Positions 2,982 through 57,310 of a DNA stretch of 64,000 bases are shown here, piece by piece. The notes beneath the pieces were generated by a model. It saw only the letters and a list, made by a program, of their open reading frames with translations, searched no databases and was not told where the DNA came from. A program made the translations under genes and the position numbers. This DNA comes from Schizophyllum amplum (taxonomy: Eukaryota; Basidiomycota; Agaricomycetes; Agaricales; Schizophyllaceae), in assembly GCA_007026445.1 (NCBI GenBank), contig VDMD01000024.1:248001-312000 (forward strand), in the 5' to 3' direction. The first letter of the stretch is position 1; every line of letters begins with the position of its first letter.

Positions 2982-5900
2982 TCACTCAGCCACCGGCGAT
3001 GGCACAGGTGGAATCGCGCTCAGGCGGCTCGACCGACTTTGTGACGGTCGATTGAGACGGCGCTGCGTCTGAGTCGCCTGCCGCTGCTGCTCCTGTTCCG
3101 CCTGCATGTGCATAATCTGCAGTTGCTGCGCGATAAAATCGGACGTGCCCGGTCTGCACGTCGTATCAGCATAACGCCAGTTACGCAGACAAGCCGAAAC
3201 GGTTGGAAAAAGGTCAAACCAGACGTGCGGACGAGTTGAACCAGATGATAGTCGAAATACGCACCTCATTCGCAATATTCGCATAATGGTCTCCCCGTTG
3301 TTAATCTCCTTGTCGTTACGCTTCTCCTTCTTGCGCTCCTTGATCGTGCCAAGGTTCCGCTGGTTGTACACGCTCTTCGCCTTCTTCTTCATCGTGCCCG
3401 ACGAGCGCAGGCTTTGCGACATCATCCGCACGCATTCCTCCATCAACGCATCGCTACGAAGAAACCTTAGCGCATGTCAACCCCAACCAAAGAGAAAACC
3501 GCACCTATGCCAGTCGTAGTACAACCGGATAGAAACAATGCTGTGATACTTCTGGTTCTGCAGCTCCTCCAGTGGCACGGGACCCTCCCCACCCGCATAG
3601 AAGTAGTCGCGCAAGAACTACACCATCAGTCAGCACCTTTTCACCGCATCCTTCTCGCACACAAACACACCTTTAGCCACTTGAACACGATATCCACCTC
3701 CTTATCGCTCAGCGGCTTCATGTCGCTCGACGCGTCCGACAGCGGCGGGATCAGCAGGCCCTCGATGACCGTCAACACCTCCTTCCACACGCGCGTCATC
3801 ACCATCTCCTTCGCCATGTCGCTCAGGTACGTGTTCAGCGTCTGCAGGTTTGCGTCGAAATAGTCGAACAGCGGCAGGATCGCCTGCTCGATCTCCACAT
3901 CCGTCAGCTCCTCAGGCCGCACGCGCGGCTTCTCGGATTGCGGTAGCGGAATCTGCGGGTCGTTCGAGGCGGAGCCCATGGCGGAGCGGTAGAGCGCGGT
4001 CACGTTCCCCAAAGCCTTGTTGTAATCGAGGCTGGTGTTGCCCTTGACCAACGTCTTGAGTACGTTGCGCGAGAGGCATTGGCAGATGAAGGGCGACATC
4101 TGTTGAGCATGTCAACAAATGAGCGCATCAAACCTGAGAGCGTCTTACCTTGTCGATGAAGATCCTCAACATATCCGCCTCTGCGCGCTTCAAAGACCGG
4201 AAGGCCCGCCCGAAGTAGAACTGAATGTCGTCTTTCTCGCCCTCCATGCTCACACGCACGAGTACCCGTCCCTGCGAGTCCAGGTCCATCCACAAGTCAT
4301 GGGCGAGGAAGTCGCCGAACCGCCGCGGGTCAAGGCATAGGTATGCGCGACCAACCGTGTCATGCTTCCCGACGAGCGCACGATCGCGCACGCTGACCAT
4401 CAACCACAACGGCTTATCGACCGAAATATCGAAAGTCTCGTCCCCTGCCAGCACATCAACACCGCCCAAAATATCCTCGGAAAAGCAACGCACATCGTGG
4501 ATTCAAGCTCTCATATATCGTTCGCGTCTTCGCCACCCGGTTGCCCGCCTCGTCACTGAGCGTCACAAACGTGTCCAACTTCGACGACGGGCTGCTATCC
4601 AGCGGGATCAACCCCTCCGCGATCACCACCTTCACTGTGAACAAGAACCGCTCCCGGTCGACCTTGTCCGGCACTGGCGGTGCGAGCTCGCGCAGAGTGT
4701 CCGCAACATTATCCGCATGCATCTGATCGTACATCTTGTCCAGCAGCCTCCGCGCCGCCTCAATGTTGTTCAGCTTCACGCACGACTCCGGCTGGAAGTT
4801 GTACGGCTCGACGCGCTTCTCGCCCTGGATCGCTAGCTGGCGCGCCTTCTCCAGCCACGCGGACGACTTCTGCGGCTGCAGGAAGTCATTGGGCCGCGGG
4901 AACATCTCCGTGAGGAAAAGGCCTTCCACGTTCCTGCAGTACTGCTCGACAGCTTTTGAGACAGTCTGCGTTTTGGGTGAGTATGATGACGGTTCTACAT
5001 CTATGGAACGCACCTTGGAGAGTGCGGTGAAGAACCTAGCGTTCTGATACTCGTCCTCCCATTCAAGATCTTCCAAGAAGTTGATCGGGCTGCGCAAAGA
5101 GTCGAACAGGTCCATGATTGACGAACTGTGACCCTCCGTGCTTTCTGCCTCGAACTGCGGTCCGTCGCTTTAGCACAGTTACACAAGGATCGAAATGCTA
5201 CTGACCTTGTCAGCGGCTATAGCGGCCTCGACCCACTGGCTTGTCTTCGCGTCCGTATTTGCTAGCCATTGTCGAACGTACGGTTCAAAGAATTGTGCGA
5301 GGTCGAAAGACAACTGCCCTCTGCAAGCGGTTGTCAGACCAAGCCAAAAACATGGATAAGGACACTCACTCAGGTACAAAGGCCTTGTACATGCCCAGCA
5401 GCGTCTTCGTTCTCCGGTAGAGGGCGAATATGTCTTGTATAGGCACATCCGGTGTCGGTCCATTCATTGATGCTTCGAACAGGTGCTTCTCGTTCCGTTG
5501 CAACTCAGCAACGAACAAGGGTATCTGCTCGCCGACCACGAGCGAAACAATGTCAAGCTGCCTGCAGGGCTTGTCAGCCTACCTCCCCTCATAAGCAAAC
5601 GATGCGCACCCCAGTATCGGTTCAGCAAACCGCTTGTCCAGTAGCTTCGCGTGCTTCTCAATGTCGTCCGTCATCAGCAACAACGGGAGCGCGCGGTTGA
5701 CACCAGGCTCCGCATGGAATTCCTGCGTCTTGAACTCGTAGTAGTGCTGCGCGACCTGCCGTATTCGCTCCTGGATGTCGCCCATCCGCGCCTGTACGTC
5801 GACTTCGAAGCGTTCCAAAAGTCCGCTCTCCTGAAGCTGCTCGAGCACGGCGAGATACGGCGCTATGTCTGCCTTCTTCAGGTCCGGCAGGGCGTCCATC

Positions 5901-7735
5901 GAATGATAGACGGAGGACAGGAAGATGTTGAACAGGCTGCCGTACACGCTGGTGAGATACTCCATCTGCGGCGGAGTCAGTATATCATTCCAACTGATCT
6001 TCTGGCGGATGGAAAGTGCGTACATCCTGCATCGGCCACTTATCGAACTCCACTTCGCCCATGACGCGCTGCACGTTCTGCAATGCCTCCGGAACACACT
6101 CCATGGGCACGTCGTTGCGCTCATAGAACTGGCGCACAAGATCAAGGAAGCACGCTACTCGATATGGTTGCCCAATCCGCCACCGCAACGCGCACTCGTT
6201 GATCAGCTCGATGTGCGACGCGGACAATATTCCCAGTGACACCTCGTCGTTGTCATCCACCTCCGGACTCATCATGCGCTCTAAGTCGGACAGCAAGCAG
6301 AACTCCAGGAGCTTCTTGTAGTACTTCTTCGGATTCGGCGGGATGTAGGTGTAGTTGTGGCCGACTTGGATGTCGTCGTCGTCGCCGTTCTCATCGTCGA
6401 CGTCCTGCTCCAGTGCATATAGGGAGCGTCGGCTGCCAACGGAGGCTTGGCGAGACGCTGAGTACGAGTGGCCAGGGCGTGTGGATGACAGTACGTCGGC
6501 AGGGGTGGACTTGGCGAGCTCGGGATTGAACTGAACCATGGCTACCATGAGCTGCTGGATATGTGAAGTCTCTAGTGTTCGCCAGTGATGCCACGCGGCC
6601 TCACTAGTGAAGTCTTCCTCCCGACCGGGGAATGGTGCGCCCGCGTTGATATTCTTCAGGCATGTCTACAAGCGAGATTGGGCGGTTAGAAACAAGGTAG
6701 CGTACTAAATCGAGACTAACCTTCAAATCTGTGAGTGCCGCCTTCTCGGTACAAATTTCCCGGAGCTTGTCGACCTCCTTTTGTACGGCAGATTCGGGAA
6801 CTTTGAAGAGCGCGGCCACCGTACGAACGAGATCCATGTCGTTGATACTTGCACTGATCCTGGGTGTAGTGTAGGAGTCCCTCTGAGATCCAGAGTCGTA
6901 TCCGGAGTCTGTGGAAGGCACAGACGCAGCCGGCGCCAGCTTCGCAGTGTACATATCCAAGCGGGAGAGCAGCTCGGGCGAGACGTGGTTGAGATTTCGC
7001 AAGCAGTCATGCAGAATCTGGACGAATTGCGCGATCTGTTTGTTCAGCTCGATCTTCCAGCCGTCGCCGGCGAGGGTGGGCTCCTTCTTGAGTACTCCCG
7101 TAGCGTGTGTTGCGAACATCAGGATGAGCTCCTCAATCTTGCGATTCTCCTTCATCTGCCGCTTGAAGCTGTCGACCATGAACTGGGTATAAAACTTCGC
7201 CATTGTTCGGCGCACGAGCTGGTCGGAATACCTGCGGCGTTAATCTTGTGAGCAGCAGTTGGCCGGGAGGAGCATACGACGCACGACGGATCCTTTCCCA
7301 TCGCAATATTCTGCAACTTCTGCTCAAGCACCTTCAACATCTTCTCGGGGAACTTGACGCTCTTGGGTCCGTCCCGCACGTCCTTGAATAGGTCCCCAAT
7401 CGAGAAGTTTGACAACGCGGACAAGCGGAGCGAGTGCTCTCTCTCGCGCTCTCGCTCCCTTTCCTTGATATCTTGGCCATTGTTGACCTCCGCTGGCTTG
7501 GGGAGGACGAGGTATGCCAGAACGCTGTGGCGCGCGCAATATCAGATGGAGTTCAAGACGCGATCGACGGGGACCCTTACGCTACTCTCAGCACATATCT
7601 ATGCGCCACGTCAGTCATGTACATTTGACACTAGAGGTTCACGCACTCGAAAAGGTCATCGTCCGTTATGCGATGCCTCGAAATCCTCTTCTCCCGTGAG
7701 ACGCTGTCATAACTGGCCACGCTCCGTCTTGACAT
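2982..7735 (-). CDS. Unc13/Munc13-like exocytosis protein (MUN, C2 and MHD2 regions)
   Basis: A multi-exon gene, probably 1,200-1,300 aa, starting at MSRRSVASYDSV (ATG at 7735). Exon 2 is an 18-nt microexon at 7581-7598 that joins LFE to YVLRVA. The N-terminal part contains charged ERERER and EHSLRLSALSNFS, then a long helical region (MUN/DUF810-like) coded roughly 7285-4500. A C2 domain lies near 4493-4150 (DETFDISVDKPLWLMVSVRD ... HDLWMDLD). An MHD2-type helical segment follows at 4099-3641. A basic, Gln-rich C-terminus ends at 2982. Fungal homologs such as fission-yeast Ync13 act in vesicle tethering/priming at the growing tip and septum; the role here is inferred from that family. A MULE is inserted about 290 bp upstream of the start, in the presumed promoter. 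Confidence 0.82.
7581..7598 (-). other. 18-nt microexon of the Unc13-like gene
   Basis: The minus-strand segment is flanked by CATAG acceptor and GTAAGG donor signals. It keeps frame between exon 1 (ending 7647, phase 2) and exon 3 (starting 7524). It supplies most of YVLRVA in the continuous reading LFEYVLRVAVLAYLVLP, which reads as a regular amphipathic segment. Skipping it would also keep frame, so a skipped isoform is possible. Confidence 0.55.
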
Positions 7736-15238: not shown

Positions 15239-15737
15239 GAGCCTGTACAGCAACCGCCGATTTCCAGCGGAAACCGTTTCCGCTGAGAACTGACGGCAAG
15301 TCGCCGACGGCATCAGCCGGCAGGGACCGGGCGCGTGGTGTTTCTCCGGCCACGCGCTTGCGTCATCACCAGCGCCCGTCCTTCCCGCCCTCCAGCTCGT
15401 CGTCGCGCGCGTCGCCGCCGCGAGTTCCATGTCGTTGACGATATTTTTGATTGACGTATAACTTTATTAGAACCATACATGTGAGCTTGTTCATTCGCTA
15501 TACCCTACGACGCTTATGAGCGATATGCAAAACCTTGGCGGTTGGGCAACGTCGACGGGGCACCGCAGCGGCGGCGACACGCGCGACGACGAGCGGGAGA
15601 GCGGGCGCTGGTGATGACGCAATCGCGTGGAGAAACACCACGCGTCCGGCCCCTGCCGGCTGATGCCGTCGGCGACTTGCCGTCAGTTCTCAGCGGAAAC
15701 GGTTTCCGCTGGAAATCGGCGGTTGCTGTACAGGCTC
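15239..15737. repeat. Foldback inverted repeat (non-coding), possible foldback/MITE-type element
   Basis: The left arm 15239-15422 is the near-exact reverse complement of the right arm 15568-15737. The outer 86 bases of the arms are identical. Further in there are a 4-base gap, a few substitutions and one divergent patch. The loop (about 145 bp) is AT-richer than the arms. Each arm contains a near-perfect 21-bp palindrome built on CAGCGGAAAC (15265-15285 and 15691-15711). No protein-like ORF spans it. TAC lies directly outside both ends, too short to prove a target duplication. Confidence 0.8.
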
Positions 15738-38736: not shown

Positions 38737-41707
38737 TCATGCCTTCGAGTTCGAGTCAGAGTCGTCGGTTTTGTTCTCCTCCCCGACGACGTCGACACCA
38801 TCCAGTGACCGGGATTGGTGCAGGTTCGACTGCGGACCGTTGTAGTGCTTGTGGCCGCCCAAGACGTACCAAAGACTGCAAATACAGTCAGCGATGGACA
38901 GAAAGATGTTGGATTTATGAAGAGCATAAGGCGGGAAAACATGATAGATGCAGTGAAAAGGATGATGAGTTCAACGGGAATCCGCGACGAATAGACGAAA
39001 GATATACGCACGCCGACAAGAACATCACGCCGACCGTGATCACCGAGGCGTAATTCATGTTGTCCGATGTCACGGGGCGTACAGTCGGCAGCGAGAAGAT
39101 CACGATGATGAACACCGTCCAGCTAATGCAGATCACTGCAAACTTCAGTCAGCCCCGAGTTCAAGCTATTCGCGGCAACGAAAACCATTCGCCATGAACG
39201 CCCCGCCCCAACATCCCTGCACTCACCATTCGCCGCCAGCCCCACAATCCCATCGCCCATATAAAACGGCCCCGGCTTGAACATCACATCCGGATGGTTC
39301 GCGAACACCCGCCGCAAAAAGATCGGGATCACGTAGCTCAGGTCGAGCGCCATGGCCGTGAGCGAGAAGATCGCGTTCGCGGCGATGGGCGAGGCGAGGT
39401 CGAGGAGGCCGGGGATGAAGGAGACGAGAGTCGAGATCCAGATGGCGTTGAGCGGGATGCCGTACTTGGTATTCCGCCCGAAATAGCCGCCGTCGGGAAG
39501 GCCTGGGTGGGTGGAGGTAAGTACAGCAGAGGATAGAGGCGGATACAGTAGGTGATAGAGAAGGGATAGTAGTGAGTACGATGGCGGGCAAAACGATGGG
39601 AAGATGAGCAGGTGGTCAAAATACGCACCGTGATCCCGACTGAAGGCAAACACCGTGCGCGACGTCGCTTGCAGCGCGGTCTGCACGACGAAGAACGCCG
39701 TGAGGCATACCGGGACCTTTCGGGAAAAACATAATTAGCATGGTACCTTCTCTTACTGGGCTCCCAGGCTACGCACCCAAAGCACCAACGCGCCCGCCTT
39801 GCCCATGCGCAGCGCCATGATTTCCAGGACAGGGTTGCTAGCCGCCACAATATCCTCCCTAGCATTTGGTTAGTACCCTTCTTCGCAAGAATCCGCTTCT
39901 TCGCAGGAGCCCGCTTCTTCGAAGGGCGCACGCTCCCTCGAAAGAGCGTGCAGGCCCCTTCGAAAGAGCGTGCAGGCCCCTTCGAAAGAGCGTGCAGGCC
40001 CCTTCGAAAGAGCGTGCAGCCCCTTCGAAGAGAGCATGCTTCTCCAAAAGATAGCATAAAGAAATGACGCACATTGGGCCGGAGCACAGCACGAGCACGA
40101 TGTTGACTTTAGGCTCGCGCGTGAGAACGGAAGTACCCCATGTCATGACGAGCACCACTCACAAAGCCATCCTATCACACCGGTGCCGATAACTGTAGGG
40201 CGCGGCGTAAGCTTGCTGTGCTTCAACAGATACACCGTGCTCGAGCACAGCGACCGAGCACAAGGAACCCGTGCTTAAACAGAGGGACCGTAAGATAACG
40301 AAGACAACTCACCCGCAATAAAATCGCAGAGGGGGCTGCAAGACAGGAGGCGCCGTATCAGCGCAGTTCGATAGCAGGGCGATAGTCACGCACCGGCATA
40401 CGCCGCTCTCCGCACTTCCTCCCTATCGCGCTGTCAGTGTCGTGTTCGCCAACTGCGAAGCGAGTGACTCACGAGATGTGCGCCGTGGCGTCGTAGTCGG
40501 TCATCTGCAGGGGCCTCTGTCACGACTGGATGAATCTTTGATAAAATTATAGCGTACCGTCCATTGCACGCTGAGCAGACCGAGCAGGAAGGCGATCCCG
40601 GTGTTCCACCCTCCCGTGCCGTTGACGATGCCGGCGCTGCCAAAGACGTAGTTGGCGGCGTGCATCTCTGAGCGCGGAGTCGTCGCGAGGAGCACGATGA
40701 TGATCACTGCATTGCCAACTCAGTAAGCCGCATGCAGGCTGTCAAGGAGCTGGAGCATCGTACGGAATGTGGCTCCAATGTTGACGAAGACGAAGCCTGA
40801 GGTAAACCGCGCGAGATGGCGCGTCCCCACTGAGTTCTGCCGTCTGCGATCAACGGAGTGAGATGGAAAGGAGGTGGTGTATGGACGTACGAGGATGCCG
40901 TGCAGAGCGAGGAGCCCTGCAAATAGACCAACAACCTGGCCAGAGGAAGCCGTGTAGTTACCGTCCTAGAGCACGCGTCAGCTGTGAGGTTGAACAGAGG
41001 TGGCCGTACGGACCTTGCCGACCGAGACTGCAGCCCAGATCATGTTGGACAGACCGAACTCTGTTGAAGAGACTCCAGCGATCTGGCCGAGGATGTTGAG
41101 CCATCCCACCAGCCAGCCGATCTGCAGGCTGTCAGCGCTCTCATTCGTGTTACACAAGCTTGAAGATGTACCCTCGCCCGGTACTTCTTGGGAGACAGAT
41201 TTGCCGACGCGGTGTACCTGCGTGGACGGTCGATACATCAACATAGCTCCGTCTCTGCGGTGATGGAACAGCTACGCACAACCCCCCGCACGTCGGGTAC
41301 GCGCTCACTATCTCGGCTATACTCGACCCCAGCGTGAAGCACATGCATGCGCCGAGGATCCAGCACCAGACGACCGCGGCAGGCCCCCCGGTGGTCAGGG
41401 GCGTCACGAACGTCGTCGAAATGGACGAGCACAGGCCCTGCGCGACGTTAGCAACCTGTGCACACAGGAGGCGGGCGATCGAGCGCACCATGATACTGAA
41501 GGCGAAGCTTATCTGGAGGGGGGACACAGTCAGCTCTCCCTCCTATCCTCGACGCGCGTAGCGTGCACGCACCGTCGCCAGGTTCGTAAACTCGCGCTTG
41601 AACGAGGGGACATATCCGAGGTCGATAAGCTCCTGGTCGTCGTCGTTGGCGCTGGTCTTGTGAGCGGCAGCGGCCGGGGCCTTGTACGGCGGCGGAGTCG
41701 CGCTCAT
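38737..41707 (-). CDS. APC-family amino acid/GABA (choline-type) permease
   Basis: Starts MSATPPPYKAPAAAAHKT (ATG 41707), with cytosolic QELIDLGYVPSFKREFTNLA before TM1. About 12 TM segments follow, including ISFAFSIMGLCSSISTTFVT, TTGGPAAVVWCWILGACMCF, SSIAEIVSAYPTCGGLYTAS, GWLVGWLNILGQIAGVSSTE, MTDYDATAHISEEVRRAA, GLPDGGYFGRNTKYGIPLNA and WTVFIIVIFSLPTVRPVTSD. The order and the YPTCGGLY and DATAHISEE motifs match fungal Uga4/Hnm1-type plasma-membrane transporters for GABA, choline or amino acids; the substrate cannot be fixed. The C-terminus is YVLGGHKHYNGPQSNL...DSDSNSKA. Introns are many and short, except one of 214 nt (39859-40072) filled by a minisatellite. Its exons join as GPM|EDIVAASNP. 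Confidence 0.86.
39880..40050 (+). repeat. 22-bp minisatellite inside a permease intron
   Basis: About four and a half near-exact copies of a 22-bp unit (TTCGAAAGAGCGTGCAGGCC + CC) run from 39936 to 40050. Upstream, 39880-39935 carries three copies of a related 18-bp unit beginning CTTCTTCGCA/GAA. The array accounts for the unusual length of this intron. It is not CRISPR-like: there are no spacers and the host is eukaryotic. Confidence 0.85.
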
Positions 41708-52472: not shown

Positions 52473-53494
52473 ATGGCGCCCTCAACCGAACAGAACTTCC
52501 GCGCCAACCTCTCCCAATTTCGCTGGGCGCGCGGCGCCGCCGACGACTCGCAGCCCATTGCGGACCAGCAGGCGACGGGGAACCCCTTCGCGCGCTTCTA
52601 TCAGACTATAGCCAGCGACTACATCCCGCTGCGCTCGAGCGAACGCTCCAACGAGGATGAGGCGTGGTTTGCGCTGTCACGATGGGAGAGGTGCGTTAGA
52701 CGCTTCTGTGCGTGGGGACGTAGTTGACGCGGGACGCGCAGATTACTAGGATTCGGCGGCTGCCTCGCTGGTGCAGCGGTGTGCTTCTTCGTGGCGTTTA
52801 TGACGCTGCCATTGCTGGCTGTCAGGTGCGTGCTGTGGTTTAGCAAGGGATAGCAGATCGCTGATGGCGCGTTGCAGGCCAGCGAAGTTCGCGCTTGCAT
52901 TCAGGTAGGATGATGAACTGTCAAGCTGAAGGGCCACAAGCTCACGTTGTACCCCATCACAGCCTGGGTAGCGTACTTGTTATGTTAGGGTGCGTCTTGA
53001 AGCTCTGGACATCCGTGACAAGTGCTAACGAAAGCCCTGGCAGGTTCTCCGTCCTCATTGGCCCTATAAATCACATCAAGCACCTCGTATCAGCAGAGCG
53101 ACTGCCATTCTCCCTCGTCTACTTTGGTAGCTTGGGGTTGACACTGTACTTCTCTTTGGGGGTGAGTGCGCTTTCACTTGCTCCCCTTGCATTCCTCTTC
53201 TCGACACCAGCGCAATTCCACGCACGCCCATGATCAATTTGCGTCCCCCTTTCCCTACTCGTACCAACGAACATTGCGGTCGACATCACTTGTCTTCCTG
53301 AATCCACTTTGGTTCAGATATAGAACTCATAGTCTATGCAGAGACACTCCTACATTGGCTCACTCATCGCCGCCATCGTCCAAGTCGTCGCGCTGGTCTC
53401 GTACGTCTTGGCCTACTTCCCCGGTGGGACGCAAACGCTTCGGATGGGTGGCCAGCTAGCGCTGCGCGGAGCAGGGAGCTTGCTGCCGCGGTGA
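52473..53494 (+). CDS. SFT2: Sft2-family vesicle transport protein (retrograde traffic to Golgi)
   Basis: Starts MAPSTEQNFRANLSQFRWAR with a long cytosolic N-terminus. Small exons carry four membrane helices of the Got1/Sft2 family: RLLGFGGCLAGAAVCFFVAF, then PAKFALAF, LGSVLVMLG and FSVLIGPINHIKHLVSAERL. The last exons hold VYFGSLGLTLYFSLG and HSYIGSLIAAIVQVVALVSY. It ends YFPGGTQTLRMGGQLALRGA...LLPR (stop 53492-53494). The NPF-like and FGG/GPxNHxKH motifs fit Sft2, an integral Golgi protein that assists fusion of endosome-derived vesicles with the Golgi. The penultimate intron is long (about 53162-53341). Confidence 0.87.
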
Positions 53495-53923
53495 TGGACG
53501 TCTACTGTGACGATGCCTCTTTCTCGACGAATAGTTGTCCTATACGACCTCGCTTATGCCCTCGGGAAACTGTGATTCTCCCAACTCAGACGGAGGTCCC
53601 CTGCTGGCGGTTGCTTCTTTGTGTACTTCATTCCGCTGGTCGTGTACGCGAGGAATTAGGACAAGCGGGATGGCATTGCTTTACTTACGTAACCTTATTC
53701 TATGATCAATATTCCTGGTCTCTGGTGGATCCACAATATACCATACAGTATACCACTAGCGGAGCTCTATCGATGTTTACGAAAGTTGGGAACGCTCCGT
53801 TGAAATCTCGACTTGAACTTCGCGCATGAACTCAGCGGGCCGTATCCCCGGAAGAGTGAAGTGTTGATGTTTGTTTGCCTACATTTATGACCAACGGTTG
53901 AAATCCCAACTTGGAATATTCGT
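53495..53923. other. 3' flank of SFT2 / original upstream region of the APH gene
   Basis: 429 bp with no gene. Before the 2.5-kb insertion at 53933 this DNA would have been contiguous with the sequence at 56481, immediately upstream of the APH-like gene. Confidence 0.5.
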
Positions 53924-53932
53924 GTCATCACC
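53924..53932. repeat. Left 9-bp target-site duplication of the helicase/DUF6589 element
   Basis: GTCATCACC, repeated at 56472-56480. Because the terminus is part of a CTAG palindrome, the boundary could be placed one base either way. Confidence 0.85.
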
Positions 53933-54122
53933 TAGTCTCGTGCCCATCCGTTCGCACCGCCACTGCACCCACAAGGATCCACCGCATAGCGTGGCACACG
54001 TTTTTCGGTATTCGGGCGGTATTGAAAAGTGAAGAGCAGTGAGCGGAGCGAACGTCTGGCGCATTCGGCGCGGGTTAGCTAGGATAACGTCATGGATGAA
54101 ATTTAAATTGCCAGGGACGCTC
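53933..54122 (+). repeat. Left 190-bp terminal inverted repeat
   Basis: I compared it by eye base by base with the reverse complement of 56282-56471 and saw no mismatch. Sequence similarity ends abruptly after ...GGGACGCTCT. Confidence 0.88.
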
Positions 54123-54250
54123 TCGCGTGCCGGTCGCGACGCGACCATTGTTCTCCTCCAGTGTCTTTCTAGCTTGCTATACAGCTGTGGGCGTCCGTCC
54201 CGCTGTCTTTCCTTCCTTATTATTTATTCACGTGATCTTGACACCCCGTG

Positions 54251-55295
54251 ATGTCAACATCAGCGCAGTCGCTTGCGGCTTCCCACCACGAAGTCAACAA
54301 AGTGCGCTCAGCCGCCAACCTTCAAGACGCGCGCGACCGCGCATTCAGAAAGCGCGGGTACAACTACGAAGCGACTCGTAGCGACCTCTCTAGCGCATTC
54401 CGATCGACATGGGGCTATGAGCCGCGCGAATGGCAGCTGGATATCACGGAAGCGCTGCTGCTCGGCCTCGATAGCGTCCTGATCGCGGGCACAGGCGCTG
54501 GCAAGACCATGCCATTCATGCTTCCCCTCAAGTACGACGAGCAAAGGACTATCCTGGTCATCTCGCCTCTGAAGATCTTGCAGGAGGATCAGGTGCATGA
54601 CACTCTGCCTTTGCTGTCGTTTCCTTGCACGCTGACCGTGTTCAAAGGCTCATCGCTTCACTGTGGCGGGAATTCCTGCGGTCGCAGTCAATGGGGATAC
54701 ATGGGCGACGGTTGAATCGGTGCGTACACATGCTTAGCAACTACGCTTGAGTACTGACCGAACCCAGGACCTGAACGCGCACAAGTACCGCGCGATCTTG
54801 ACCTCTCCGGAGATGTGCCTGGAGTTTCCGGCCTTTCGTCAATACCTTTCGACACCAGAGTTCCAGAGACATCTCACAACAGTCGCGGTCGATGAGGCGC
54901 ACTGTATTGGGCAGTGGGGCGGCGACTTCAGGAAACACTACGCCATGCTACACAAACTCCGCGCGTTATTCCCTTCCACCATCCCCTTCTTAGCTGCAAC
55001 AGCTACCCTACCTCCTGCGGCTCGGGACGACGTCTGCGCGGAACTGAACATCAATCTGCACGACTCATACTTCGTCAACCTCGGCAACGATCGCCCGAAT
55101 ATTACGCAAGAAGTTCGCTTCGTCGAGAGTGCGCACGACTACGCCGCGCTCGCGGAGCTACTGCCAACCAACGCGCGGACTGCGAAAGACATACCCAAGA
55201 CACTCATTTTCGTGAATTCCCGCCTGGGTACGCAGGAAGCATGTCGCGAGATCCGCAAGCTGTTTCCGCGTTCCCCGTCCATTTGTGACTCATGA
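54251..55295 (+). pseudogene. 5' half of a RecQ-type DNA helicase (element-borne, truncated)
   Basis: Begins MSTSAQSLAASHHEVNKVRS. Motif 0/I region WGYEPREWQLDITEALLLG and Walker A AGTGAGKT are intact. Ia is ILVISPLKILQEDQ, and a short intron leads to AGIPAVAVNGDTWATVE. A second intron leads to HKYRAILTSPEMCLEF, the DEAH box VDEAHCIGQWGGDFRK and motif III FLAATATLPP. The start of the second RecA-like lobe follows (KTLIFVNSRLGTQEACREI). The frame then runs into foreign sequence at about 55275 and stops after about ten codons. Motifs V-VI and any RQC region are missing, so it cannot be a complete helicase. Confidence 0.8.
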
Positions 55296-56161
55296 CGAGG
55301 CCCGACGCATGGAGAGTATCGAATGCTTTCGCGGATAAGCCTTTGAACTTGACGTATATGCTGAGTGCCTTTTGATATCGGCCACAGTTCTTGTTCCGTG
55401 TGTAACAGAGCATACTAATGACCGTGAATACGACCTGCACGCGTCCGATTCCATGAGCGAATGTTATATGTCGTAGCGGTATGGCAACATACCTTGTCAG
55501 GATTTTTTCTTGTATTATGCACTTCCTGTCGTGCACTGTATCCCAACTGTCGCAGAAGACTCCATGCCTGCGGAGCGATATGTTGCACTCGCGGAATAAG
55601 TTCCGAAAAGCGCATAGAAGTCAGCTCCTCTGCAGACAGCTCGCGGTTTGCAGGAGACCGGAGCACTTTGGACGAGACGCTCGCTAGTTCTTGAGTGAGT
55701 TGCTCCAGGACTATGGCGAAAGCAGCCTCTTTGACAGCTGTGGCGCCTCCTTCCGGTTGCGTGCCCTTCCTGACGCGCGGCGGATCAGCCCACCTCTGCA
55801 GCATCGTCGGAAGGTCACTGTGCATGAAAGCACGACGAACACCTCGGACGCGAGGGTCGCTTGTACACGCGCGATTGCCACAGGTGACGAGATCGACGAG
55901 CTCGGCTAGGCTGAATCCTTCGTTCTCGATGGCTGCGAGAGCACGCTTCACGCGGCCAACAAGTAGGGCATCGAATGCGGAGGGCAGCGTATCCTCATCG
56001 CCCCAAGCGTCATCCTTGTTCGACAACGATGGGTGGCGTGCCGCCTCCGCCGCCGCATTGAGTTCTGAATCAGAGCCTGAGGATTCCGTGGGTGAAGAGA
56101 GGTGATATGACATTTCAGAGTCTGTAGAGCTAGTAGCGTTGTCACGTTCATGGTCATTCAT
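55275..56161 (-). pseudogene. 5' half of a DUF6589-type gene (element-borne, truncated)
   Basis: Starts MNDHERDNATSSTDSEMSYH (ATG 56161). A longer in-frame extension into the inverted repeat up to 56365 is open. It contains a Ser-rich leader, then a helical segment FDALLVGRVKRALAAIENEG, FSLAELVDLVTCGNRACTSD and RAFMHSDLPTMLQRWADPPR. After one intron it continues VVFTVISMLCYTRNKNCGRY and QKALSIYVKFKGLSAKAFDT, and it is cut at GLVMSHKWT. This order matches what I remember of the N-terminal part of fungal DUF6589 proteins. The conserved C-terminal body is absent. A transposase or accessory role is only an inference. Confidence 0.65.
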
Positions 56162-56281
56162 GAGGACGACGCGACGCGATGATATTGGCGACGACGAAGA
56201 GATGTAGAAGACAGATAGGCGCGCAGGATCACTCGCGAGATCAGGCCACGCGCGAACGCAACAGGCAAAGAACGCGGTCCA

Positions 56282-56471
56282 GAGCGTCCCTGGCAATTTA
56301 AATTTCATCCATGACGTTATCCTAGCTAACCCGCGCCGAATGCGCCAGACGTTCGCTCCGCTCACTGCTCTTCACTTTTCAATACCGCCCGAATACCGAA
56401 AAACGTGTGCCACGCTATGCGGTGGATCCTTGTGGGTGCAGTGGCGGTGCGAACGGATGGGCACGAGACTA
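56282..56471 (-). repeat. Right 190-bp terminal inverted repeat
   Basis: Inverted partner of 53933-54122. It ends 38 bp before the ATG of the APH-like gene, so it may now act as that gene's 5' flank. Confidence 0.88.
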
Positions 56472-56480
56472 GTCATCACC
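56472..56480. repeat. Right 9-bp target-site duplication of the helicase/DUF6589 element
   Basis: GTCATCACC, identical to 53924-53932. Confidence 0.85.
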
Positions 56481-56509
56481 AGCACAGGTTCACGGCGTAG
56501 AGGGCCAAG

Positions 56510-57310
56510 ATGCTCCTCGCCTTCCTCTGCGAAGCTTATATCTTCGTCCGAGGATGCTTCGAAAAGCGCTTCGGCCGACTCATGCTCATCCCTCTTGGCT
56601 TCGTGCTCAAAATTGGCGACGCCAGCGTTGGCGCTGAAGCAGACACGCTTCGCTTCATTCGGGAATACACCTCCATTCCGGTACCACGCGTCTACGCCGC
56701 GGACCGTGCCTTCGGGCGCACATATTGTCTTATGGAAGAAGTGAAGGGCGCCGAGGAGCTTCACTTCGTATGGCGCGAGCTGTCTGCGAAGCATCGCGGT
56801 CTCGTACTGGACCAGCTCCGCGATGTCATTCGCCAGCTGCGAAGCCTGCGACCACCGCCCTGCGTTCTGTCTGGCGCTATCTGCTCGCTCTACAACGAGG
56901 CCACGAGGGATAGCCGTATTGCCTCAGCGCCGCCCCTTGGACCCTTTCCCAACGAAGCTGCATTCAACGACCGCCTTATAAAGGCTTCGGAATTATTCCT
57001 GGGCGACGACATACTATCTGACATTCGCCCTCGGATGCGCGAGGATCACCGCATCGTCTTCACGCATGGTGACCTAGCACCGCGCAATATCATGGTTCGA
57101 GGCCACCGGATCGTCGCAATCCTTGACTGGGAGGAGTCGGGCTGGTATCCGGAGCACTGGGAGCTTGTCAAGGCGCTGTGGTATCCCGGACTTCCGGATG
57201 GCAAAGACCCGGAATGGAATGAGGGGATGAAGGACATCGTGGGGCGCGAGTACGAGAAGGACTACGACACTGATCACGAATTATCAGGGCGTATGGTTGG
57301 GGCATTTTAG
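56510..57310 (+). CDS. Aminoglycoside phosphotransferase (APH)-like kinase
   Basis: A single-exon 266-aa kinase-like protein. The N-lobe has IPLGFVLKIGDASVGAEADT with the ATP-binding lysine, followed by FIREYTSIPVPRVYAADRAF and the hinge YCLMEEVKGAEEL. The catalytic loop FTHGDLAPRNIMVRGHRIVA and the metal-binding DWEESGWYPEHWELVKAL are intact. The C-terminus is DHELSGRMVGAF. The fold phosphorylates small molecules; large families of these occur in Agaricomycetes without known substrates, so no drug-resistance role should be assumed. The start codon lies only 38 bp from the recent transposon end, so its promoter has probably been displaced. A decayed copy lies at 58742-59300. Confidence 0.85.
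   Translation: MLLAFLCEAYIFVRGCFEKRFGRLMLIPLGFVLKIGDASVGAEADTLRFIREYTSIPVPRVYAADRAFGRTYCLMEEVKGAEELHFVWRELSAKHRGLVLDQLRDVIRQLRSLRPPPCVLSGAICSLYNEATRDSRIASAPPLGPFPNEAAFNDRLIKASELFLGDDILSDIRPRMREDHRIVFTHGDLAPRNIMVRGHRIVAILDWEESGWYPEHWELVKALWYPGLPDGKDPEWNEGMKDIVGREYEKDYDTDHELSGRMVGAF

Follow-up and report, generated by a model that had tools for sequence, protein, structure and literature searches.

Mutator-like elements (MULEs) have long terminal inverted repeats (TIRs) and target duplications of 9-11 bp, and Kolobok elements duplicate the target TTAA. AcademH was reportedly the subject of a study by Kojima in 2020 (Mob DNA). In an excerpt of one source, AcademH is described as a helicase-encoding DNA transposon which occurs in low copy number in Basidiomycota, Ascomycota, and Mucoromycota (PMC10799480). 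A RecQ helicase is also encoded by KolobokH and by Kolobok-1_CCri, according to extracts from PMC9587614; KolobokH is restricted to fungi and has the helicase downstream of the transposase domain, while the rhodophyte element Kolobok-1_CCri has it on the complementary strand. Zisupton/KDZ is a DNA transposon group that occurs in fungi and makes 8-bp target duplications, as stated in a part of PMC12730594, and the term DUF6589 is absent from the main text of that paper. Pfam lists DUF6589 as a family of unknown function. The term was not found in the literature searched, and no paper on DUF6589 elements was recognised by title or by the start of the abstract.

The window (the whole stretch of DNA that was analysed, 64 kb in length) contains an element of 2,539 bp at 53933-56471, which starts with TAGTCTC and ends with GAGACTA. 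An inverted-repeat scan (seed 14, minimum 40 nt) of the 64-kb window gave two pairs in total, one of which bounds this element. The scan reported arms of 192 nt (53932-54123 and 56281-56472) that are 100% complementary. Since the outermost base pair of these arms is part of the target duplication, the element runs from 53933 to 56471 with identical arms of 191 bp, where the preliminary description had put identical repeats of about 190 bp. The perfect 9-bp duplication described there was also found; when lengths of 3-13 bp were tried on the flanks, only 9 bp matched. No Rfam family reached its gathering score in 53800-56600. The features are as follows, C273, C245, and C116 being other contigs of the same assembly.

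53924..53932, no strand: target-site duplication, left copy, GTCATCACC; present as a single copy in the empty site on C116
53933..54123, plus strand: left TIR, 191 bp; identical to both arms of the C273 copy
54251..54592, plus strand: RecQ-type helicase exon 1 (start codon and N-terminal part of the DEAD domain); boundaries predicted from comparison with C273, not from transcripts
54388..55067, plus strand: divergent tract, element positions 456-1135; 77 of 680 sites differ between the window copy and C273, and C273 equals C245; read as a conversion of C273, the window copy having the older sequence
54648..54719, plus strand: RecQ-type helicase exon 2; gene model by comparison
54768..55270, plus strand: RecQ-type helicase exon 3, truncated at the deletion junction; the frame continues to a stop at 55293-55295
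55266..55270, no strand: deletion junction; CCGCG occurs on either side, and 3,628 bp present in the C273-type element are absent
55266..55434, minus strand: DUF6589 gene, start of exon 2, truncated ahead of the DUF6589 domain; a 64-residue match at 89% extends past the junction
55493..56161, minus strand: DUF6589 gene exon 1 (start codon complement at 56161); from comparison with C273
56281..56471, minus strand: right TIR, 191 bp; from the inverted-repeat scan
56472..56480, no strand: target-site duplication, right copy, GTCATCACC

The second pair of the scan belongs to another element, MITE-like and about 499 bp long, at 15239-15737, with 109-bp inverted repeats (98%), TAC on both flanks by eye, and paired matches at five other places in the genome. 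A tandem repeat with a 22-bp spacing lies at 39908-40039.

The preliminary description had proposed comparing the repeat with the whole assembly, and this comparison revealed a full-length relative on C273; matches to the flanks of the insertion revealed an empty site on C116. Neither of the outcomes that the description had named as refuting it came about: other copies with these ends exist, and in C273 the two genes lie between the same repeats. The relative (C273:44958-51122; L028:559-6723) is 6,165 bp in length and has the same ends as the window element, its 191-bp arms being 100% identical to those in the window. Both genes lie between its repeats, in the order TIR-DUF6589> <RecQ helicase-TIR. 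The DUF6589 gene matches PF20231 in exon 2 (7e-90) and exon 4 (1.7e-6), and the helicase gene on the opposite strand has the Pfam domains DEAD and Helicase_C; one helicase exon matches WRN/RecQ chains in the PDB, with WRN as the best match (1.6e-19). By its predicted gene content, the full element of about 6.2 kb has a DUF6589 gene facing a RecQ-type helicase gene, with a 191-bp TIR at either end.

Compared with C273, the window copy has an internal deletion of 3,628 bp, whose joint lies within a 5-bp microhomology, CCGCG; the helicase ends within exon 3 at the deletion. Both helicase pieces in the window match Pfam DEAD (1.4e-7 and 4.8e-7). A Pfam scan of the two window ORFs of the DUF6589 gene gave no match because the gene is cut ahead of its named domain. 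Since the deletion has removed the DUF6589 domain proper from the window copy, the gene was identified via C273. From the window alone, the preliminary description had recognised an internally deleted element with a RecQ-type helicase and a DUF6589-type gene, each starting beside an inverted repeat, pointing inward, and truncated at a single junction near 55275. All of this agrees with the layout of C273 and with the junction at 55266-55270. The description had also supposed that a full-length parent, TIR-helicase>...<DUF6589-TIR, exists elsewhere in the genome. C273 bears this out as a full-length relative with identical 191-bp ends, while C273 in its present form does not qualify as the direct parent, given the 77 differing sites in the divergent tract. 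The C273 copy seems to lie within a host-gene intron, close before the 3′ splice site (L028:500-570 and 6720-6740, by eye); the host gene is AMP-ligase-like by eye, and Pfam gave no match for its upstream piece.

The 191-bp repeat has at least 27 matches in its own genome (49.65 Mb, 309 contigs). Both ends could be paired for 13 copies, while four repeat matches (two on C1 and two on C223) were left unpaired. The paired copies are those of the window (2,539 bp), C273 (6,165 bp), and C245 (35,046 bp), five of 1.2-1.7 kb on C13, C239, C269, C179, and C241, two short ones on C112 (184 and 153 bp), and three of a second, non-coding family on C299 (twice) and C223 (896-897 bp). With the element boundaries fixed at TAG...CTA, an exact 9-bp duplication was found in 12 of the 13, in which all other lengths between 3 and 13 bp failed to match; the C241 copy is without a target duplication. 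The duplications vary in sequence across copies. This measurement over many copies had been suggested by the preliminary description, and so had the presence of other copies with the same ends. The gene-less copies of 0.15-1.7 kb have the same ends and, except for C241, 9-bp duplications; thus, the ends seem to be enough for a copy to be moved.

The two ends on C245 (84466 and 119511) have a 9-bp duplication in common and span 35,046 bp. A giant cargo element was considered at this place and rejected, since the interior is one older 6-kb element interrupted by later stretches. The interruption consists of an LTR retrotransposon of Gypsy type (with RT, integrase, and chromo domain), a Helitron, and further stretches; the interior was read except for 99 bases. 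Inside the span of the interrupted element, L048:7941-8468 has a weak match to a TET/JBP dioxygenase (7.6e-4, below the Pfam cut-off). An excerpt of PMC12730594 reports TET/JBP genes in fungal transposons.

How recently did the window element move? On C116, an element-free site with a single GTCATCACC is identical to the joined window flanks at 219 of 221 positions, with no gaps. Window 53332-53932, the left flank plus one copy of the duplication, matches C116:18109-18709 at 99%, the right flank after the second duplication copy (window 56481-57081) matches C116:18710-19310 at 99%, and the two C116 segments abut. As judged from this match, C116 represents an element-free allele or haplotig, or else a recent duplicate. 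It could be a duplicate and not an allele, and the empty site could also come from precise excision; either way, the element moved recently. It is this empty site, and not the identity of the repeats, that points to recent movement and supports a young insertion. An APH-family phosphotransferase open frame (5.5e-21) at window 56501-57310 adjoins the insertion, and the element may sit in the upstream region of this frame here, unlike in the C116 version. For the C273 copy, no near-identical empty site was found; a gene copy at C273:58464-59545 matches both flanks of the C273 element at 81-82%, 6 bp apart.

The preliminary description had also called the insertion young, and this stands through C116. 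The reason it gave, the identity of the repeats, does not hold in this family. The copies on C239, C269, C179, and C241 have two unlike arms, one resembling the left arm of C245 and the other resembling its right arm (97.6-99.4% each). Between unlike arms, BLAST gives 86-90% identity; in pairwise alignments, the two arms of one such copy have the same base at 93.4-95.6% of the 181 ungapped columns (a further 18 columns have gaps), and the two arms of C245 at 91.6% of 178 ungapped columns (a further 24 have gaps). The C269 and C179 copies are 99.84% identical over 1,282 bp and have thus spread recently, while the identity between their two arms is about 88% by BLAST and 93.4% over the 181 ungapped columns. 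Since such near-identical recent copies have unlike arms, repeat identity is no age clock in this family. Identical inverted repeats, which are often taken as a sign of youth, tell little in such a case.

The comparison of the window copy with C273 and C245 indicates that family copies have exchanged tracts. By element position, the window copy and C273 have no differences at 1-455, 77 at 456-1135, and 2 at 1136-1338. In 100-bp bins, C273 and C245 are 99-100% identical in the tract 456-1135 and 76-97% identical elsewhere; the left edge of the tract is inexact because of the interruption of C245 at 396-465. In three-way site counts, C273 equals C245 against the window copy at 77 sites, the window copy equals C273 at 15 and C245 at one, and all differ at three; four of the 77 and one of the three all-different sites lie past the deletion junction and were left out. 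Of the remaining 73 C273=C245 sites, 72 fall in the tract. At positions 1136-1338, the window copy equals C273 against C245 at 13 sites, with one site the opposite and one all different. Most economically, this is read as a transfer of about 0.67 kb of helicase sequence from a C245-type element into C273, with the older sequence kept in the window copy. With this segment coming from a third lineage, C273 would not be the direct parent as it stands. The window copy itself was considered as the recombinant and rejected, since C273 equals C245 inside the tract and the window copy equals C273 outside it.

The exchange of tracts bears on the age of the insertion. The insertion might be old, with repeats that are identical only through homogenising gene conversion, and both the exchange among family copies and the failure of repeat identity to track age would suit such a history. 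This is most unlikely, however, because the same assembly has the empty site described above and because the differences between the window copy and C273 outside the tract are few: 5 substitutions and 2 indels in 1,209 aligned columns on the DUF6589 side and 2 substitutions in 658 bp on the helicase side, each with the TIR included. A recent insertion is the preferred reading.

Is the pairing of DUF6589 with a helicase common in this genome? PF20231 has 19 matches, which were manually grouped into 10 loci: C299, C7, C1, C77, C79, C273, C223, C46, and two on C245, at 69 and 84 kb. The C299 locus has six stops. A query with a C273 helicase exon gave 16 matches, of which 10 lie beside the DUF6589 loci, one is in the window copy, and five (C260 twice, C35, C183, and C255) have no DUF6589 neighbour. 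All 10 DUF6589 loci have a helicase match, nine at 1.5-2.7 kb and the interrupted C245 copy at 6.0 kb; the match beside C223 is weak (1.5e-4, compared with 5.7e-4 to 6.9e-4 for the unlinked C35, C183, and C255), and the RecQ identity of the neighbour was tested for C273 alone. The gene pairs are convergent in eight loci and divergent in two (C299 and C7). The ends and duplications are known for two of the 10 loci, C273 and C245 at 84 kb; in the other loci examined, no convincing inverted repeat or family end was found, their sequences being too short to decide. C1:2072571-2077073 and C77:32205-36707 (L060 and L061) share 99.1% identity across 4,503 bases and possibly represent two haplotypes of a single locus. 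Together with the empty site on C116, this near-identity suggests that the assembly contains unmerged haplotypes.

Purifying selection acts on both the DUF6589 and the helicase genes, with dN/dS values of at most 0.10. Between C273 and C245, five segments of DUF6589 gave 0.094, 0.036, 0.029, 0.015, and 0.08 (90, 90, 33, 11, and 56 differences), and the helicase gave 0.098 (28 differences in 630 bp, including part of the converted tract). Between the window copy and C273, helicase exon 3 gave 0.02 (40 differences), and exon 1 has 10 substitutions with no amino-acid change. In C273 as in C245, a GT-AG intron leaves the join of DUF6589 exons 3 and 4 out of phase, with an extra GAAG (L028 of C273, about 3154-3210; L047 of C245, about 5975-6029). 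Exon 4 evolves as coding sequence, with a dN/dS of 0.08 in the in-phase frame and 1.28 in a shifted frame. C273 is at most a candidate autonomous copy, given the out-of-phase join in its DUF6589 gene.

In an alignment of DUF6589 sequences, D307, D478, and E720 are invariant in eight of eight, and E439, D583, D625, D652, and D716 are equally invariant. The C1 and C77 sequences in this alignment are near-copies, C7 is partial, the exon joins were made by hand, and the C223 protein was aligned solely without the E720 region. D307-D478-E720 is likely as a candidate DDE triad, chosen among several invariant acidic positions, and, judging by the invariant acidic residues only, DUF6589 is a putative DDE transposase. 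A sequence search of the PDB with one DUF6589 member gave no match, and a DUF6589 profile gave one chance-level match there, to a design construct (E 0.33). No other Pfam family was found at a meaningful E-value in six DUF6589 members, and no DUF6589 relatives were found in viral contigs, by one protein or by profile. Might the helicase drive the movement, with DUF6589 as an accessory? In favour of this, the helicase is conserved about as strongly as DUF6589. However, the combination of TIRs and a 9-bp duplication of constant length indicates a DDE enzyme, RecQ helicases are not known to have a strand-transfer site, and DUF6589 has invariant acidic residues; a helicase-driven movement is thus very unlikely.

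Very probably, the window feature is a non-autonomous member, shortened by an internal deletion, of a cut-and-paste DUF6589/RecQ family of this genome, and the copy would be moved in trans, with DUF6589 as the presumed DDE transposase and the helicase as its presumed assistant. In the proposed mechanism, the DUF6589 protein would bind the TIRs, excise the element, and join it to target strands staggered by 9 bp, and the RecQ-type helicase may aid excision or repair. The internal deletion may have been generated by abortive gap repair slipping at CCGCG. The window copy would be moved by the proteins of a full-length relative, and I infer that C273, or a similar relative, mobilises it. The evidence of movement is unusually direct: a deletion derivative that is polymorphic, the corresponding empty site, and a relative of full length form a natural set of parts, and one DUF6589/helicase pair sits between recently moved repeats. 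The copies thus suggest for DUF6589 a transposase role that is directly testable.

The 191-bp TIRs and 9-bp duplications are like those of MULEs. In contrast to a MULE, no MULE transposase domain was found by Pfam in six gene pieces of C273 or in six DUF6589 members, C273 helicase exons 1-2 and DUF6589 exon 3 lying outside the scan; that the element is a MULE is extremely improbable. Zisupton/KDZ, as far as its excerpted description goes, is likewise a DNA transposon group present in fungi, but its duplications are of 8 bp, whereas with fixed boundaries only a length of 9 matches in the 12 copies here. A RecQ helicase is shared with KolobokH, and a helicase on the strand opposite to the transposase candidate is shared with Kolobok-1_CCri as partly described; the varied 9-bp duplications differ from TTAA, and the helicase of KolobokH, in the same partial description, lies downstream of the transposase domain. 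It is conceivable, though rather doubtful, that DUF6589/RecQ elements are a superfamily of their own, defined by a DDE transposase with a separate RecQ helicase gene, ends of the TAGTCTC...GAGACTA type, a strict 9-bp duplication, copies that recombine, and some lineages with two different terminal repeats. Probably, the element is of a known type. By content, AcademH, compared here through an excerpted description, is the closest known system: it too has a helicase gene inside the element, which in C273 lies between the TIRs and matches DEAD, Helicase_C, and WRN/RecQ. I take it as reasonably likely that the DUF6589/RecQ element belongs to AcademH.
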